A stretch of DNA of 64,000 nucleotides from Geminicoccus roseus DSM 18922 (lineage in GTDB: Bacteria; Pseudomonadota; Alphaproteobacteria; Geminicoccales; Geminicoccaceae). How positions within the stretch are numbered: the stretch's first letter is position 1; every line of letters starts with the position of its first letter. A program made the translations under genes and the position numbers. The DNA lies in NCBI RefSeq assembly GCF_000427665.1, contig NZ_KE386572.1:186001-250000 (forward strand). Direction: 5' to 3'. This document shows, piece after piece, positions 8,129 to 47,743 of this stretch. Under the pieces are notes generated by a model. That model had not been told where the DNA came from, did no database searches, and saw nothing but the letters and a program-made list of their open reading frames with translations.

Positions 8129-8780
8129 TTAGTCAGCTGCATAGCCAGCATTCCGAAGATAGTTGGCCCACTCGGTTGGGCTGAAGTCGTCGAGCAACTG
8201 CCCGATGGTGCTCCAGAGGGTCTCGCGGTTTCGGGCAGCGGCCTGACGCAGGAGCGTCTTGAGCTTGGCGACGGCCTGCTCGATCGGATTGAGGTCGGGC
8301 GAGCAGGGTGGCAGGTAGAGGAGGCTGGCGCCGGCCGCGGCAACCGCTTCTCGAATGCCTGCCACCTTGTGCGCGGCCAGGTTGTCCATGAAGCGCCAGC
8401 AGGCGCGTCATCCGATCCCTGCAAGGGACGCGTGCAGGAGCACGCGGAGGCACCACCACGTCTCCTGGGAACAGCGTCGGCACCAGGAACTGCTGGACAT
8501 AGGCATGGAAGGCCCTGCCGGTCATCGGCCCGTCCAGGACGAGCGGAGCGACGATGCCGCTGGAGCGCAGCCCGGCAAGCGAGGTGGTGACGTGTCAATG
8601 ACCGTGTGGAGCGGCATCGATCAGGCGCCGGCCCTTCGGCCACCAGCCGTAATGACTGACCATGTTGGTGCTGACAGTGGTCTCATCCAAGAACACGAAG
8701 CTGGCAGGATCCATCAGGGTTGCCAGCCACGCTAGCGTTGGCAGCGCCTGGCCACGTCCGGCCGATCCTGTTCCGTCGCC
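8129..8780 (-). pseudogene. IS630 transposase catalytic domain, broken
   Basis: Remnants of the DDE catalytic domain in shifted frames. FVFLDETT carries the first Asp, then PHGH is followed by an in-frame TGA (8595-8597) where the family normally has Trp. The frame continues through LVLDGPMTGRAFHAYV to FPGDVVV and is broken by a 61-bp insertion at 8390-8450. After it, MDNLAAHKVAG and SPDLNPIEQAVAKLK supply the second Asp and the Glu, ending at 8129. There is also a frame change near 8720. At least three lesions make it non-functional. Confidence 0.85.
8390..8450. repeat. 61-bp insertion with hairpin inside the transposase gene
   Basis: Compared with the expected continuous frame (GDVVV directly followed by MDNLAAHK), exactly 61 bp are extra here. 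The insert contains a perfect inverted repeat CGCGTGC-AGGA-GCACGCG and a smaller one, TCCC-N5-GGGA. I noticed no second copy in this window and no clear target duplication. It may be a REP-like palindromic element; that identity is a guess. Confidence 0.5.
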
Positions 8781-8781
8781 C

Positions 8782-9135
8782 TCAACGTCCTTTTTTATGC
8801 GGCGGCCCGAGCCGGCGCAGGGTCGACCAGATGGTCGTCAAAGAGCCGGCCTCGATGCCGCGACCGGCCAACTCGGCTTGGATCTTTGCCCGAGCGATGC
8901 CTTTGTGGCCGGCCACCAAGGCACCCAACAACTCCTCGTGCCCAGCCAGCAGAGGCTTGCGGTAGCCGCCAATCTTGGCCGGCTGGGTGCTTCCAGTCGC
9001 CCGCACTCGCCGCATCAGCCGGTGCACCGCCGTCGAACTCACCGCAAAACGAGCCGCTGCCTGACGAGCCAAACTACCGGCTTCAATCACCTGCACCAGC
9101 CGCCGACGCAGATCCTGGGACAAAGGTGCCGCCAT
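8782..9135 (-). CDS. IS630 transposase, N-terminal helix-turn-helix ORF
   Basis: 117 residues from MAAPLSQDLRRRL to PPHKKGR. The helix-turn-helix portion LARQAAARFAVSSTAVHRLM binds the inverted repeats in IS630 elements. Near its end the six-A tract would allow a -1 shift into a frame reading KKRTLRATEQDRPDV, which is the normal continuation of the family. That continuation hits a stop soon after (QR then TAG), so even with frameshifting the full transposase is not made. A start at 9150 is also possible. Confidence 0.7.
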   Translation of the reverse strand: MAAPLSQDLRRRLVQVIEAGSLARQAAARFAVSSTAVHRLMRRVRATGSTQPAKIGGYRKPLLAGHEELLGALVAGHKGIARAKIQAELAGRGIEAGSLTTIWSTLRRLGPPHKKGR

Positions 9136-9206
9136 CGCTGCCGCCTTCACTCAGACCGAGGAAGCTCCAGCGAAACCCGCAATCGTACAAACCTAAAATG
9201 CTCTAG

Positions 9207-29259: not shown

Positions 29260-29394
29260 TGGAGGCGGAACTGCACCATATTTAGCCAAGACGGACTGTT
29301 GGACTGGATATGGTGCTCGTCGCCTTGCGCAAAAGTCAGTATGGCCCGGCACTGATCCTGCCGCCCGATCCTGGGACGAGAAAAGGCTATCGTG

Positions 29395-30891
29395 ATGACC
29401 GTTGATCGCGCCACGCCCAAGGCGAAGACCGGCATCGCCGGGCTGGACGACATTCTCGTCGGAGGGCTGGCGCGCGGGCACGTCTATCTGCTGGAAGGCA
29501 ATCCGGGCACAGGCAAGACCACCATTGCCCTGGATTACCTGCTGGAAGGCGCGGCACTGGGAGAAAGGTGCCTCTACATCACTCTCTCCGAGACGGAGCA
29601 AGAACTCCGGTCCGGCGCGGCATCGCATGGCTGGGAGCTGAACGAGAACATCAGGGTGTTCGAGCTGGTGCCGCCAGAAAGCCTGCTCGACGCCAACCAG
29701 CAGCAGAGCCTGCTCTATTCGGCGGATCTCGAGCTGGGCGAGACCACCCGGATGATCTTCGATGCGGTGGAGCGGGAGAAGCCGAGCCGGATCGTGCTGG
29801 ACAGCCTGTCCGAGATCCGCCTCCTGGCCCAGAGCTCCCTGCGCTACCGCCGGCAGATCCTGGCGCTGAAGCATTATTTTGCCCGGCATGGCGCCACCGT
29901 GCTGATGCTCGACGACCTGACCTCCGAAGCGGCCGACCGCACCGTCCACAGCGTCGTGCACGGCGTCGTCCGCCTGGAGGAACTGGCCCCCAATTATGGC
30001 GCGCAGCGCCGGCGAATGCGCGTCCTCAAATACCGTGGCCAGGCGTTCCGTGGCGGGTTCCACGACATGACGATCCGGACCGGCGGCGTCGAGGTCTTTC
30101 CACGTCTGGTCGCGGCGGAGCACCGCAGTCCGATCGCCCGCCAGACAAGCACGAGTTGCATCCCGGAACTGGATCAACTGCTCGGCGGCGGGATCGAGAG
30201 CGGGTCTAGCACGCTGGTGCTCGGTCCGGCCGGCACCGGCAAGTCGATCGTCACCCTGCACTTCGCCCACGCGGCGGTCCAGCGCGGCGAGAAGGCGGCC
30301 CTGTTCATCTTCGACGAAGAACTGGGGATGCTGTTCGACCGCGCCAAGAAGTTGAACATCGACCTGGAGCAGTTGAGCAGCGAGGGCCGCCTGTTCATCG
30401 AGCAGGTCGATGCCGCCGAGATGTCGCCCGGCGAGTTCGCCCATCGGGTACGCGAGCAGGTCAGCAGCCATCAGGTCAAGACCGTGGTGGTCGACAGCCT
30501 GAACGGTTTCCAGGCGGCGATGCCCGACGAGCATGCCGTCATCCTCCATCTGCACGAATTGCTGCAGTACCTGAACCGGCAGGGGGCCAGCACCTTCCTG
30601 ACGGTGGCGCAGCACGGGCTGGTCGGCGACGGTCAGGCGCCGATCGACATCACCTATCTTGCGGACACAGTGATCCTGCTTCGCTATTTCGAAGCGCACG
30701 GCCGGGTCCGGCGTGCGATGTCGGTGATCAAGAAGCGGGCTGGCCTTCACGAGGACACGATCCGCGAATTCAAGATCACCCATCAGGGCCTCCTGATCGG
30801 CGAGCCGCTCCACAGCTTCCAGGGGGTCCTGACTGGAGCGCCGACCTATGCCGGAGAGGCAAATCCTCTTCTGGGAACGGCCCGGGCGTGA
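29395..30891 (+). CDS. KaiC-like double-domain ATPase
   Basis: 498 residues with two RecA-like KaiC domains. The first has Walker A GNPGTGKTT at 35-43 and SETEQELRS as the catalytic carboxylate region; the second has GPAGTGKSI and FIFDEEL. The segment aligned by eye with the cyanobacterial phosphorylation sites reads DITYLADT, giving Thr-Tyr instead of Ser-Thr. It therefore may hydrolyse ATP and autophosphorylate differently from clock KaiC. There is no kaiA or kaiB in the window. The stop overlaps the GTG of the hybrid kinase (GTGA), so the two are co-translated and probably work in one signalling path. Confidence 0.9.
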   Translation: MTVDRATPKAKTGIAGLDDILVGGLARGHVYLLEGNPGTGKTTIALDYLLEGAALGERCLYITLSETEQELRSGAASHGWELNENIRVFELVPPESLLDANQQQSLLYSADLELGETTRMIFDAVEREKPSRIVLDSLSEIRLLAQSSLRYRRQILALKHYFARHGATVLMLDDLTSEAADRTVHSVVHGVVRLEELAPNYGAQRRRMRVLKYRGQAFRGGFHDMTIRTGGVEVFPRLVAAEHRSPIARQTSTSCIPELDQLLGGGIESGSSTLVLGPAGTGKSIVTLHFAHAAVQRGEKAALFIFDEELGMLFDRAKKLNIDLEQLSSEGRLFIEQVDAAEMSPGEFAHRVREQVSSHQVKTVVVDSLNGFQAAMPDEHAVILHLHELLQYLNRQGASTFLTVAQHGLVGDGQAPIDITYLADTVILLRYFEAHGRVRRAMSVIKKRAGLHEDTIREFKITHQGLLIGEPLHSFQGVLTGAPTYAGEANPLLGTARA

Positions 30892-32912
30892 CGATCTCGG
30901 AACGCGCTCTCGTCTTCACGCCCACCGGGCGCGACGCCTCCGTCGCGGCGGCATTGCTGCGGGAAGCGGGAATTGGGTCGACGATCTGCTGTGACATGGA
31001 AGCCCTTTGTCACGGGCTGGCCGAGGGGGCTGGCCTTGCGATCGTCACGGAAGAAGCGTTCCGGACCTCGAACCTGAGAATGGTGGCGCAGTGGATCGAG
31101 CAGCAGCCGTCCTGGTCTGATTTTCCGTTCGTGCTGCTGACCGAACGAGGCTCCGACACGGAACAGAACCCGGTTGCGGCGCGCCTGTCCAGCGTGCTGG
31201 GCAACGTCATCTTCCTGGAACGTCCTTTCCATCCGACCACCCTGATCGGCGTGGTCCAGAATGCGTTGCGCGGGCGTCGGCGCCAGTACGAAGCCCGGAC
31301 CCAGCTGGAGGCGATCCGCGAAAGCGAGGAGCGCCTTAGCATGGCGCTGAAGGCCGGGCACCTGGGAACCTGGGAATACGACCTGGCGACCGGGGTGCTC
31401 ACCACGTCGGAGCACTGCCGGATGAATTTCGGCCGCTCCCCGGACGACCCGTTCAGTTACGAGGAACTGCTCGAGAGCGTCCATCCTGCTGACCGGGCGC
31501 GCATGAAGGCGGCCGTCCGGCACAGCATCACCAGCGGCGACGACTACCTCATCGAGTATCGGGTCGTCTGGCCGGACGGGAGCCTGCACTGGATCGAGAT
31601 CCGCGCGCGGATCATTGAAGATGGCCGGTCCCGCCGCCTGATCGGAGTGTCCAGCGACATCACCGCCCAGAAGACGGCGCAAGCCGAACTGCTGCGGTTC
31701 AGCGAGACGCTGGAACAGCAGGTCCAGGAGCGCACCGCCGAACTCCGGCAGAAGGAGGCGGCGCTGCGCCAGGCCCAGAAGATGGAGACCATCGGCCAGC
31801 TTACCGGCGGCGTCGCCCATGACTTCAACAACCTGCTGATGGCGGTGATCGGCAACATCGATCTCCTGCGCCAGAAGATCCCCGATTCGCCCCATCTCCA
31901 GCGCTACCTGGACGGTGCGCTCCAGGGTGCGCAGCGCGGGGCGGCGCTGACCCAGCGTCTGCTCGCGTTTGCCCGTCGCCAGGACCTGGCGCCCGAACCC
32001 GTGGATCTTCGTCTCCTGGTGGAGGGCATGCATGCCCTGATCGAGCGCTCGCTTGGCCCTTTGATCTCGATTGATCTCCGGCTGGCCGACGCCATGCCTC
32101 CGGCGATCGTCGATTCGAACCAGCTGGAGCTCGCGATCCTCAACCTGACCGTCAACGCGCGCGACGCGATGCCGGATGGCGGGCGCCTGACGATCGAACT
32201 GGACCAGAGGCCGCCGCCGATAGGTCTGGCGCTGACACCGGGACAGTATCTTCGCCTTGCTGTCCGGGACAACGGGGCCGGAATGGATGCGCGCACCCTG
32301 GAGCGCGCCATCGAGCCGTTCTTCTCGACCAAGGAATTCGGCAAGGGTACCGGCCTGGGCCTGTCCATGGTCCACGGTCTTGCCGTGCAACTCGGCGGAA
32401 CACTCAATATCGTCAGCCGGATCGGCGAGGGCACCACCGCCGAACTCTGGCTGCCCGTCTCGGAGGTGGAAGTGAAACGCGGCGTAACGTCTGATCAGGA
32501 AGTCACCGCAGCCCCCAGTTCCACCATTCTCGTGGTCGACGACGATGCGCTGATCGCCATGAGCACGGTCGATATGCTGGAGGACCTGGGTCATACCGTC
32601 ATCGATGCCCAGTCCGGCAAGCAGGCGCTCGAGATCCTGGAGGGCGGCACCCATGTCGACGCGATCGTCACCGATCATGCGATGCCCGGGATGACGGGAG
32701 CGGAACTCGCCATGAAGGCGCGGGAGCTGCGGCCCGACATCCCGATCCTCCTGACCACCGGCTATGCCGACCTTCCGGCCGGAGTGGGCATCGACCTCCC
32801 GCGCCTGGGCAAGCCCTACCAGCAGCGCGATCTGGCGGAAAAGCTGTCGAAGCTCCTGAACGCGGCCCGGGAAACCCGGCTGGCCGACGCGGCCAAAGAC
32901 CCCGTCGATTGA
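30888..32912 (+). CDS. Hybrid histidine kinase with pseudo-receiver and PAS
   Basis: 674 residues, no membrane helix. The first 130 residues look like a receiver domain without its phospho-Asp (LAIVTEEAF) and with RPF in place of KPF. Then come a PAS domain (about 145-270), a coiled coil, HisKA with His311 in [11 protein letters not shown], an ATPase domain ([25 protein letters not shown]) and a genuine receiver with Asp596 in [12 protein letters not shown] and Lys in LGKPYQQ. Its translation is coupled to the KaiC-like gene, which is the likely partner. Confidence 0.93.
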
Positions 32913-43450: not shown

Positions 43451-45376
43451 ATGGCTGTCCGCAACCGGCTGCTCGCGTCTGTCACCTGCCTCATGCTCGT
43501 CAGCCCCGCCGCCTGGGGGCAGGACAAGGACGAGGCGGCGCTCGTGGCGAAGGGCGAATACCTTGCCCGCGCCGCGGACTGCATGCCATGCCATACCGCC
43601 CCGGGCGCCAAGCCATTCTCCGGTGGGCTCGGCATGAGCACGCCGTTCGGCACCCTCTTTTCGGTCAACATCACGCCCGACAAGGAGACCGGGATCGGGG
43701 CGTGGACGTTCGACCAGTTCAAGGCCGCCCTTCATGACGGCGTGCGCGCCGACGGCGCGTATCTCTACCCGGCCATGCCGTTCGACGCCTACACCAAGAT
43801 CACGGACGAGGACCTGCAGGCGCTCTGGGCCTACTTCCGCAGCCTCCCGCCGGTGAAGGCCGAGAACAAGGCCAACCAGCTCGAGTTCCCGTTCAGCATC
43901 CGGCTGGGCATGCTCGCCTGGCGCGAGCTGTTCTTCACGCCGCAGACCTTCACGCCGACCGCAGGCAAGAGCGAGGCATGGAACCGGGGCGCCTACCTGG
44001 TGGAGGCGCTGGGCCACTGCTCGGACTGCCACACCCCGCGCAACCTGATGGGCGCCGTCAAGGGCAAGGAGCATTTCATCGGCGCGGAGATCGACGGCTT
44101 CTACGCGCCGCAGATCTCCGCCGCCGCCCTTGCCGACAATTGGACCAGCGCCGAGCTGAAGACGTTCCTCAAGACCGGGACCGGCGAAAACAAGACCAGC
44201 GTGTTCGGACCCATGGCCGACGTGGTCGAGCACAGCCTCAGTCACCTGACCGACGCCGATCTCGACGCCATGGTCACCTACCTGCTGGACAGCCCGCCAC
44301 CGCAGGACGTGCCCACCCCGCAAAAGCAGTCGCCGCTGCCGGCCGACGTCTATCAAAGCGCTTCCAAGCTCTATATCGACCAGTGCGCCACCTGCCACCA
44401 GCCGCACGGGACCGGCATCGCCGGCTCGGTTCCGCCCTTGAAGGGCAATCCCGCGGTGACGGCCACGGAGCCCTACAACGTGCTGGCGGTGGTGCTGGAC
44501 GGGCTGCCGTCCAGCGGCAAGTACGACGCGATGCCCTCCTTCGCCGGCCGGCTCTCCGACCGACAGGTCGCCGATCTGGCCAACTATGTCCGCACCAGCT
44601 GGGGCAACGACGGCGCGGCCAACGCCACCGCCAAGATGGCGGGTGTGTGGCGCAGCACCACCAGCGTCCCCGATGTCGGCACGGAAAGCGCCGCGGCCTT
44701 CCAGTGTCCGCAGGTAGGCGGCGCGCCGGGCGGCACCGGTCCGGACGCCCAGGCGGTCCAGGCCGTCGCCGAGATGGTCAAGGGCGGGAACCGCAACGTC
44801 CACGATCTGGTCGACGCGTACCAGGCGCAGGCCTCCGGCGCCGATCCGGCCGAGATCGTCAACGCCGTGATCTCCGCCTACTGCCCGGCCGTCGCAGCCG
44901 ATGACACGCCTGCCTACATGAAGCAGGCAGAGCTGGAGCGGGTCGCAAGGCAGGCTGCGGCCGATGTCTCCCCGGCGACGGCGGCCGCGCCGCTTCCTGA
45001 CGTCGACCTGACCTGGGCTGTCCAGGTCGGCCACAGCGTCCTCGCCCGCGAGGCGAAGGAAGGAACCACGACGCTTGCCTGCCCACCCGACAACGGCAAG
45101 CTGGTTCCGGCCGGTCTGGTCGCCAGCGCGACCGCGATCTTCGGCAAGCCGGCCCTTCCGGTGACGGGCAAGGCCCGCCAGGAATATGTCGATCAGCTGC
45201 TGGCCAAGGAGCCGAAGGCATCAGAGGCCGACATCGCCAATGCCCTGATCATGGCCCATTGCGCGAGGCTGGTGGCCGACCAGGGCGTCAGCGAGGCCGA
45301 GCGGCGCACCTGGCAGGAAACGTTTGGCCAGGAGGTCATCCAGGGGCTGCAGATGCGTACAGCCCGGGCGAACTGA
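43451..45376 (+). CDS. Triheme cytochrome c with duplicated C-terminal Cys module
   Basis: 641 residues with a signal peptide. Three heme c sites are CMPCH (44-48), CSDCH (190-194) and CATCH (312-316), as in the cytochrome subunit of membrane alcohol/aldehyde/gluconate dehydrogenases, which pass electrons to the quinol pool or oxidase. Those subunits usually end near residue 430-470. Here about 215 more residues contain two similar segments, each with a Cys pair (419/478 and 544/604) and NAVISAYC / NALIMAHC. No dehydrogenase large subunit is adjacent. Start at 43451 follows GGGGGAAAAAC. Confidence 0.9.
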   Translation: MAVRNRLLASVTCLMLVSPAAWGQDKDEAALVAKGEYLARAADCMPCHTAPGAKPFSGGLGMSTPFGTLFSVNITPDKETGIGAWTFDQFKAALHDGVRADGAYLYPAMPFDAYTKITDEDLQALWAYFRSLPPVKAENKANQLEFPFSIRLGMLAWRELFFTPQTFTPTAGKSEAWNRGAYLVEALGHCSDCHTPRNLMGAVKGKEHFIGAEIDGFYAPQISAAALADNWTSAELKTFLKTGTGENKTSVFGPMADVVEHSLSHLTDADLDAMVTYLLDSPPPQDVPTPQKQSPLPADVYQSASKLYIDQCATCHQPHGTGIAGSVPPLKGNPAVTATEPYNVLAVVLDGLPSSGKYDAMPSFAGRLSDRQVADLANYVRTSWGNDGAANATAKMAGVWRSTTSVPDVGTESAAAFQCPQVGGAPGGTGPDAQAVQAVAEMVKGGNRNVHDLVDAYQAQASGADPAEIVNAVISAYCPAVAADDTPAYMKQAELERVARQAAADVSPATAAAPLPDVDLTWAVQVGHSVLAREAKEGTTTLACPPDNGKLVPAGLVASATAIFGKPALPVTGKARQEYVDQLLAKEPKASEADIANALIMAHCARLVADQGVSEAERRTWQETFGQEVIQGLQMRTARAN

Positions 45377-45516
45377 CCGTTCGTCGCACGGCCTTACGCT
45401 GTCCGGCACCGGCATGATATCTGGTGATGGTCCATCAGGAGATCGTGCCGGTGCCTTCCGCTTTCGTGTCGCCATATGGGCCAGGCCACGCGGACGCATG
45501 CCAGGCACGGCGGAGC

Positions 45517-47655
45517 GTGAAGGATGCGCCCGCCAGGCAGATCGGCCGCGTGGCCCTGGCAGCCGCTGTGGTCGGGCTGCTCGGCGCCGGCCCCGCCGCT
45601 GCCGTGGAGAGCGCGGCGGTCAGCTCGCCGCAGACCACGGTCAGCCTGATCAGCGAGGCGGCGGCGATCGCGCCGGGCGAGCCGTTCCGCCTGGGCCTTC
45701 GCCAGGTCATCGCACCCGGCTGGCACACCTACTGGTCCAATCCCGGCGACGCGGGCGCGCCACCGGAACTGGCCTTCGACCTCCCCAAGAACGCATCCGC
45801 CAGCGACCTGTCCTTTCCGGCGCCCGAGCGGATCCCCTACGGCCCGCTGGTCAATTTCGGCTACGAGGGCGAGGTCGTCCTGCCCCTGACCGTCACCCCG
45901 CCGGCCGACCTGCAGCCGGGCCAGCGCTTCGAGATCCGGGCCGACGGCTACTGGCTGGTCTGCGCGGACATCTGCATCCCCGAGGAGGACAGTTTCCACC
46001 TGGACCTGCCGGTCGAGGCCGCCGCCCGTCCCGCCCCGGACACCGCGGCGCTGTTCACCGCCGCCGAGGCGGCCCTGCCCCGCTCCTCCCCCTGGCAGGC
46101 CACGGCGGGGTTCGAGGGCGATGCCGGCGTCCTGCAGCTTTCCGGCGAGATGCTCACGCCCGGCTCGGTCACCGAGGCCTTCTTCTTCCCGGCGGCATCG
46201 GGCGTTCTCGACCATGCGGCGCCGCAGGAACTCCACCTGGCGCCGGGCACGCTCAGCCTGTCCCTCACCCGCGCCAAGGGCGAGCTGCCGCCGCGGCTGG
46301 ACGGCGTGATCGCGGTGACCGACGCGGCCGGCAGCCGCAGCAGCTATGTCGTGAGCAGCGAGCTTGGCGCGGTCCCCGTGGTGGCCAGCACACCGGCCCT
46401 GCCGCTGTGGCAGGCAGCCGCCTTCGCGGTGCTGGGCGGGCTGTTGCTCAACCTGATGCCCTGCGTGTTTCCGATCCTCGCCATGAAGGCGGTGGGGATC
46501 GCCGCGCTTTCCGGAGCGCGCAACGGCGTGGTGCGCGGCCATGCCGCCTCCTATACGGCAGGCGTCCTCGTCTCGTTCCTGGCGCTGGGCGGCCTGCTTC
46601 TCCTGCTCAAGGCCGCAGGGGCGGTGGCCGGCTGGGGCTTCCAGTTCACCTCGCCCGTGTTCGTCGCCGCGATGGCCTGGCTGATGCTGGCGGTCGGGCT
46701 GAACCTTTCGGGGGTCTACGCCATGGGCCGGCCGGTCACCGCCGGCGGCAAGCTCGCCGACCGGAGCGGCCATCTCGGCAGCTTCGCCACCGGCGCGCTG
46801 GCCGTGCTGGTGGCGACCCCCTGCACCGCGCCGTTCATGGCCGCCGCGATCGGCGCGGCCTTCGCGATGCCGCCGGCAGCGACGCTGGCAGTGTTCGCGG
46901 CGATGGGCCTGGGCATGGCCGCGCCCTATGCGCTCCTGGCCTTCGCTCCGGGGCTGGCCCGGCTGCTGCCCCGTCCGGGCCTGTGGATGGAGCGCCTGAA
47001 GCAGGTCCTGGCCTTCCCGATGTACGGCGCCGCCATCTGGCTGGCCTGGGTGCTGACCGTGCAGGCCGGGGCGGACGGGGTCCTGCTGGTCCTGGCCGGC
47101 GCCCTGCTGATCGCCTTCGCCGCCTGGGCGCTGGGGGTCGCCCAGGGGGCGGCGCCGCGCGGGCGGATCGTCGGCCAATGCACCGCCGGCGTCGCCACTG
47201 CGATCGCCCTGGCGCTCCTGCCGCAGCTCGGCTCGTCCGCGGTCGGGCCCGCCCTTGCTGAGACCGGTGCGCCCGGGACCGAGCGATGGAGCGAGGCGCG
47301 GGTCGCAGCGCTCCAGGCCGAGGGACGGCCGGTCTTCGTCAACTTCACCGCGGCCTGGTGCATCACCTGCAAGGTCAACGAGGGGGTCGCACTGGAGACG
47401 GCCGCGACCCGGGCGGCGTTCGAAGCGGCCGGCGTCGTCACCCTGGAGGGTGACTGGACCAGCGGCGATCCGGTGATTTCCGCGTTCCTGGAGCGTCACG
47501 GGCGGGAAGGCGTGCCGCTCTACCTGCTCTATCCGGCCGGCGGCGGCGCGCCCACCGTCCTCCCGCAGATCCTGACCCAGTCGATCGTGCTCCAGGCGCT
47601 GGAGCCGGCCGCCGCCCGCACCACCACCGCGCGGGCAATGTCCGCGCAGGGTTGA
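45517..47655 (+). CDS. ScsB/DsbD-like thiol:disulfide interchange protein
   Basis: 712 residues from the preferred start. Signal peptide (GRVALAAAVVGLLGAG), periplasmic N-terminal domain with Cys in LVCADICIPEED, eight-helix membrane domain with LMPCVFPILAMK and VATPCTAPFMAA, and a C-terminal thioredoxin domain with AAWCITCK. It moves reducing equivalents from cytosolic thioredoxin to the periplasm, keeping, for instance, heme-binding Cys reduced. This fits the c-type cytochrome gene just upstream. GTG at 45517 gives a normal signal peptide; ATG at 45427 would add a 30-residue leader. Confidence 0.88.
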   Translation: MKDAPARQIGRVALAAAVVGLLGAGPAAAVESAAVSSPQTTVSLISEAAAIAPGEPFRLGLRQVIAPGWHTYWSNPGDAGAPPELAFDLPKNASASDLSFPAPERIPYGPLVNFGYEGEVVLPLTVTPPADLQPGQRFEIRADGYWLVCADICIPEEDSFHLDLPVEAAARPAPDTAALFTAAEAALPRSSPWQATAGFEGDAGVLQLSGEMLTPGSVTEAFFFPAASGVLDHAAPQELHLAPGTLSLSLTRAKGELPPRLDGVIAVTDAAGSRSSYVVSSELGAVPVVASTPALPLWQAAAFAVLGGLLLNLMPCVFPILAMKAVGIAALSGARNGVVRGHAASYTAGVLVSFLALGGLLLLLKAAGAVAGWGFQFTSPVFVAAMAWLMLAVGLNLSGVYAMGRPVTAGGKLADRSGHLGSFATGALAVLVATPCTAPFMAAAIGAAFAMPPAATLAVFAAMGLGMAAPYALLAFAPGLARLLPRPGLWMERLKQVLAFPMYGAAIWLAWVLTVQAGADGVLLVLAGALLIAFAAWALGVAQGAAPRGRIVGQCTAGVATAIALALLPQLGSSAVGPALAETGAPGTERWSEARVAALQAEGRPVFVNFTAAWCITCKVNEGVALETAATRAAFEAAGVVTLEGDWTSGDPVISAFLERHGREGVPLYLLYPAGGGAPTVLPQILTQSIVLQALEPAAARTTTARAMSAQG

Positions 47656-47743
47656 CCATCGACACTAGGGGAGCGCCCGCGCGGTTGACTCCTGCCGCCG
47701 GCATGTCCCCCTGCCCCGGACCGACCGAACGGGGGACACCTGC

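Follow-up and report, generated by a model that had tools for sequence, protein, structure and literature searches.

A putative exported cysteine-pair module, found as a tandem duplicate at the C-terminus of a triheme cytochrome c of Geminicoccus roseus

In glucose, alcohol, fructose, and aldehyde dehydrogenases, the cytochrome subunit carries three haem c domains, and so does a protein encoded in the stretch of DNA analysed here (64,000 nucleotides of Geminicoccus roseus DSM 18922, hereafter the window). A phmmer search against PDB matches it to 8hdd_B (1.4e-82), 8gy2_B (8.8e-82), 7w2j_C (1.2e-73), and 8gy3_A (2.4e-67). The best-scoring stretches of these matches lie within residues 8-408, and none enters the C-terminal tail. 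Compared with these subunits, the window protein has about 230 extra residues with two Cys-pair modules, and, unlike dedicated dehydrogenase cytochrome subunits, it has no dehydrogenase genes among its immediate neighbours. Its core has the three CXXCH motifs and the homology across the haem domains that characterize the ADH/GDH/FDH triheme superfamily. As for the features of a dedicated subunit, no PQQ, FAD or Mo dehydrogenase subunit is co-encoded (a GPI-type isomerase and DsbD are encoded closest to it), and the chain continues long past haem domain III. Thus, we classify the protein as a triheme cytochrome of the superfamily and not as a dehydrogenase subunit; a dehydrogenase partner may be encoded elsewhere in the genome.

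The gene occupies positions 43451..45376 on the forward strand and encodes 641 aa, according to the open frame, Pfam, and an orthologue in the congener (L002/L063). Pfam Cytochrome_CBB3 matches the protein in three stretches (5e-24). Residues 1-23 (43451..43519) form a putative signal peptide, recognised by eye, and are followed by haem sites CMPCH at residue 44 (43580..43594), CSDCH at residue 190 (44018..44032), and CATCH at residue 312 (44384..44398). After the third haem domain, there are four cysteines, at residues 419, 478, 544, and 604. Measured from the beginning of the third CXXCH, the rest of the chain is 330 residues long, versus 83-117 in the module-less three-haem relatives examined. 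A promoter and terminator scan gave nothing usable. Elsewhere in the window, fragments resembling an insertion-sequence transposase lie at 8132-9150 on the reverse strand, and the gene of a KaiC-like ATPase and, immediately after it, that of a probable sensor kinase occupy 29392-32909 on the forward strand (both by eye).

An earlier sequence-only reading had taken the tail for an internal duplication with Cys-Cys distances of 59 (419/478) and 60 (544/604). Both distances are exact, and the duplication is borne out by direct comparison and by profile search. In the direct comparison, the two halves of the tail score 70, which is equalled by none of 5000 shuffles (shuffle maximum 56). The main profile HMM, built from 14 module sequences with own-genus rows excluded, matches two units of the window protein over nearly their full length: copy 1 at residues 416-506 (44696..44968, Cys 419 and 478, domain E 2.7e-10) and copy 2 at residues 542-634 (45074..45352, Cys 544 and 604, domain E 2.3e-7). 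The gap between the two matches, residues 507-541 (44969..45073), is a linker, and its residues 511-540 are 50% identical to the congener. The congener conserves all four cysteines at a tail identity of 58%; although its halves are not significantly similar when compared directly (score 41, equalled by 375 of 5000 shuffles), the main profile again reports two nearly full-length units (domain E 1.2e-7 and 2.4e-10). As a control, the best of 2000 shuffled tails reaches a full E of 0.37 with this profile. Narrower profiles give a less clean picture. One of cytochrome modules only gives one shuffled tail an E of 0.026, at 12.1 bits, where the window protein scores 55.6 bits. Another, of stand-alone proteins only, finds the two units of the window protein, the second in part, and weakly matches the first unit of the congener (domain E 0.0095). 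The independence of the main profile is partial, since its members were recruited via a search chain begun from the window's own units. Judged by these comparisons, the tail is confirmed as a tandem duplication of one module.

Outside the genus, the module is found both at the end of cytochromes and as a protein of its own. Within the family of the organism, a search with the tail at E 0.01 gives matches in 3 of 31 genomes, and the convincing ones are the window genome and its one congener (G001 and a second place in G004 were dropped). In an even sample of the class, at least 8 of 385 genomes have the module at E 0.001, as a cytochrome tail in five (G000, G144, G410, G361, and G311) and as a stand-alone protein in three (G109, G308, and G385). 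In the order of G361, matches at E 0.01 are reported for at least 11 of 150 genomes; 10 were retained, all with triheme cytochromes, and G421 was dropped. Since the class profile searches scored about a dozen candidates per genome at most, these counts are lower bounds. In the first module search, 8 of 15 genomes (E 1.6e-4 to 0.0087) were counted as chance, two judged from the protein (L012 and L013) and six from the match table alone. G311 is among these six, and its true module place came from other searches.

Stand-alone module proteins make up 13 of 21 loci examined, all from Reyranella and close MAGs (L042-L054). The other eight loci (L055-L062, 6001-6063) are Streptomyces sequences sharing a 21-residue stretch that resembles the helix before the second Cys; it is likely a chance match or a common helix motif, and these loci were dropped. 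A further stand-alone copy, in Polymorphobacter, is found in 2 of 72,556 plasmid records (WP_216711146.1, annotated as a hypothetical protein) and has a lipobox-like start by eye; one more genome besides these two genera also encodes a stand-alone module. The Reyranella and Polymorphobacter proteins have the spacing of the window module and the signature CP ... (A/G)(Y/F)CP but, unlike the window protein, no cytochrome part. Two of three stand-alone examples inspected have no Cys beyond the module pair, counting from the start chosen.

A single module ends 13 other triheme cytochromes that were fetched (L064-L075 and L039), all of which have one Cys pair after the core. L069 has an extra Cys 39 residues past the third CXXCH, and L065 reaches the contig end after its module. 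These proteins share with the window protein the core group and the position of the module after haem III but differ in having one module, not two; among the cytochromes examined, two copies are confined to the window's genus. Searched against plasmids, the full window protein matches 758 records, none of them across >80% of its length, and two single-module tails found no plasmid. The module thus recurs, as a single copy, in one group of cytochromes and occurs also as a stand-alone protein, neither of which was within view of the sequence-only reading.

The window units show the characters of the module family: a Cys pair 58-63 residues apart (the spacing counted in module proteins), CP and A(Y/H)C contexts, and a match to the own-genus-free profile. 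Among 17 aligned rows (18 minus the near-copy L009), the invariant columns are the first Cys, the Pro after it, and the second Cys (17/17). This invariance of Cys is inflated because the rows were recruited by profiles that reward Cys. Columns with A, Y, N, L, P, K, and F are kept in 14-16 of 17 rows and one acidic column in 13, while His, Met, and Trp stay below 60% in every column of these rows. The sequence-only reading had also allowed for a metal site in the tail, and Cys is indeed a common ligand, of which the doubled form has four. Single modules, however, have one Cys pair, and the columns offer little beyond the invariant C, P, and C, with one acidic position at 13/17 and no His, Met or Trp at 60%. 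The metal site is thus not borne out, and binding of a metal or an extra cofactor by these cysteines appears extremely improbable.

According to AlphaFold, the stand-alone Reyranella unit forms four helices (21-32, 36-50, 56-72, and 79-97; pLDDT 83.8, pTM 0.77); the third helix contains the second Cys, and the first Cys falls in an N-terminal stretch of low confidence. The model of the window tail shows the same helix order twice, with lower overall values (pLDDT 65.3, pTM 0.47). Copy 1 is well predicted (tail positions 23-34, 40-50, 56-72, and 78-96), and copy 2, modelled with no aligned relatives, has low confidence (144-153, 164-176, 182-199, and 205-230). The module is most likely a putatively exported four-helix unit of roughly 93 residues with one Cys pair.

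Evolution is faster in the tail (dN/dS of about 0.46) than in the core (0.21), as would also be expected of an extension under loose constraint, so that the tail might be a weakly constrained spacer with no function of its own. Its dN/dS is, however, still well under 1, which indicates purifying selection, and both cysteines are kept in 17/17 rows from several bacterial families. A mere spacer is therefore very unlikely in our judgement.

The domain libraries searched do not recognise the module. With the tail as query, all Pfam and NCBIfam models stay under their cut-offs; with the 18 module sequences included, Pfam gives nothing below E 0.016 (CUE, 1 member) and NCBIfam nothing below 0.0048 (MSMEG_6209_Nter, in 3 of 18 members, which scores 16.8 bits against L009 at a cut-off of 25). 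The module is absent from the copies of Pfam and NCBIfam searched. The sequence-only reading had named as its own refutation a tail that is a common part of dehydrogenase cytochrome subunits and holds no repeat, and neither the domain searches nor the PDB searches point to such a tail. PADLOC gives no match with the tail as query, and PHROGs reports weak unnamed families (phrog_5648 at 0.00056 for 1 member and phrog_23669 at 0.00075 for 3 members). The PDB sequence search with the module yields nothing convincing (best 0.017, a triosephosphate isomerase). Fold comparison gives no clear PDB relative by Foldseek (best E 0.64); with VIA-align the best Z is 6.9, for a designed repeat protein, which according to the tool is in the common range for helical bundles. 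No such tail is described in the parts of papers that the literature search covered.

The HdeA/HdeB acid chaperones are small, helical, and periplasmic, and have one Cys pair. Since a gene annotated as HdeA/B lies about 1.3 kb away from the stand-alone gene of Polymorphobacter, kinship with this family was considered. Profile comparison gives it no support: hhalign of the module against one HdeA/B-annotated protein reports E 0.82 over 9 columns, and the HdeA family is absent among the Pfam rows for the 18 modules and among the best 50 rows of each fold table.

The relation of module-bearing cytochromes to others was assessed with a tree of 39 cores, in which the 15 module-bearing ones fall on one side of a branch and the 24 others on the opposite side (support 93/94); none of 500 label shuffles clusters as tightly. 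A smaller earlier tree of 24 rows gives 65/93, and both supports are under the tool's starred level. The nine plasmid loci fetched for the trees were hand-picked among the first 40 matches (L095 was excluded, a different cytochrome having been picked there), and L081, a paralogue from the window genome on a long branch, was excluded from the second tree. Most simply, this pattern suggests that the module was joined to this triheme cytochrome group once. The expectation that a paired-Cys domain is not a normal part of such cytochromes holds in the comparisons made, in which the best-scoring stretches of the PDB matches stop by residue 408 and the module is present in 0 of the 16 other class cytochromes (those with an E of 1e-70 or lower among 240 class genomes). 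The latter end 83-110 residues after the third CXXCH start, with no further Cys past that motif. Among the homologues of the window genome itself (L081, L083, L085, and L086: one triheme, one diheme, and two with a single CXXCH), none shows a comparable tail in the frames read. Two module-less triheme cytochromes, from Methylobacterium nodulans (L088 1516-2727) and Mesorhizobium (L089 1423-2700), have a b(o/a)3-type cytochrome oxidase as their neighbour rather than a dehydrogenase.

As for the genomic neighbourhood, a cupin-type glucose-6-phosphate isomerase gene (PF06560, 42671-43234, reverse strand) lies upstream and divergent from the cytochrome, itself adjoining sugar ABC transporter genes. 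Downstream on the forward strand is a DsbD/ScsB-type thiol exporter gene (45424..47655, start approximate; Pfam DsbD_N, DsbD_TM, and Thioredoxin_7). The order of these genes is the same in the congener. The sequence-only reading had pointed to this exporter as a neighbour of the cysteine tail. The adjacency itself stands, as the two genes are neighbours on the same strand in both syntenic own-genus genomes, and the functional link turns out to be weak. It is conceivable that the Cys pairs are redox-active and are reduced by the adjacent exporter, so that the cytochrome would couple thiol and haem redox states. In the congener, the DsbD gene beside the cytochrome carries the sole DsbD_TM match of the genome (the window genome has two others), and a peroxiredoxin-like gene (L063 473-1099, reverse strand) then follows, between DsbD and a sugar isomerase-like gene; at the corresponding place in the window (47656-47743) there is none. 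The sugar genes on both flanks are, however, equally shared by the window and the congener (by eye from gene starts), and the adjacency thus carries little weight and may be mere synteny. Moreover, the tail has neither a CXXC motif nor a thioredoxin-family match. In the other module-cytochrome genomes, a DsbD_TM match is present in 11 of 13 and near the cytochrome in 0 of these 11: the distance is about 63 kb in G410 and over 1 Mb in G311, and in the other nine all matches are on other contigs, where closeness across a contig break is possible. Altogether, we regard redox-active Cys pairs as quite unlikely.

Our preferred reading, to which we assign a probability of roughly 55%, is that the window protein is an orphan periplasmic triheme electron wire, whose disulfide-braced module was joined once, doubled in its own genus, and serves for docking. 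The module group, the single joining, and the own-genus doubling are based on profile, alignment, and tree. The protein would be exported to the periplasm (by eye from the signal peptide), where DsbA-type oxidation would close one structural disulfide per module (419-478 and 544-604); a disulfide within each module is plausible. The modules would then dock the triheme wire on a membrane or periplasmic partner, such as an oxidase, a reaction centre or a dehydrogenase, and electrons would pass through the three haems, not the cysteines. Alternatively, the tail might be a membrane anchor or an oligomerisation unit rather than a specific docking domain, with the doubling strengthening attachment. 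The helical predicted fold would suit this role, as would the fact that module-less three-haem relatives end, 83-117 residues after the third CXXCH start, at about the beginning of the module. The small stand-alone form of the module and the lack of a long hydrophobic stretch in the module sequences (by eye) nevertheless make an anchor or oligomerisation unit unlikely.

The docking reading can be compared with the surroundings of single-module relatives. Reaction-centre genes (PF00124) are found in 7 of 15 module-cytochrome genomes, as a raw count, and in 0 of 2 genomes of the window's own genus. In three genomes of one phototrophic genus, which are not independent, the single-module gene directly follows pufL, pufM, and tetraheme pufC: it overlaps the pufC stop in L066 (6823-8511, forward strand), comes 8 bases after pufC in L067 (reverse strand), and 22 bases after it in L068 (7133-8854, forward strand), with starts set by eye. 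PufL and PufM have PF00124 support in all three loci, while PufC is identified by Pfam CytoC_RC in L068 (2.9e-125) and by four CXXCH and gene position in L066 and L067. In the other four reaction-centre genomes, the distance between puf and the module cytochrome is about 10 kb in G465 (where genes of bch and crt type, named by eye, lie close to the cytochrome) and about 48 kb in G311, and in G521 and G476 the cytochrome is on another contig. The PufL motif, used as a marker of Acidiphilium, has His rather than Glu at all three puf-linked loci, which are accordingly not identified with that genus.

In the parts of papers covered by the literature search, there is no second cytochrome gene behind pufC, and the triheme forms described are variants of PufC itself or dehydrogenase subunits. 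According to PMC10715153, acidophilic taxa of the Acetobacteraceae have deranged bc1 complexes; the puf-linked genomes are not assigned to these taxa, but such complexes make a role of the module cytochrome as reaction-centre donor worth testing. The position of the single-module gene directly behind pufL-M-C fits docking on a membrane electron-transfer complex. Tentatively, and with less than even confidence, the module might mark an unrecognised orphan triheme subfamily that plugs into membrane electron-transfer complexes, with the puf-linked product feeding the reaction-centre cytochrome and the window's genus rewired via a second docking module.

A putatively exported module, unrecognised by the copies of Pfam and NCBIfam used, now has a sequence definition and is tied to a single group of cytochromes, respiratory or photosynthetic. 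With the puf-linked members, donation to the reaction centre can be tested directly. If the tentative joint reading is true, their product would pass electrons from periplasmic oxidations to the reaction-centre cytochrome, by-passing or supplementing the bc1/cytochrome c2 route.
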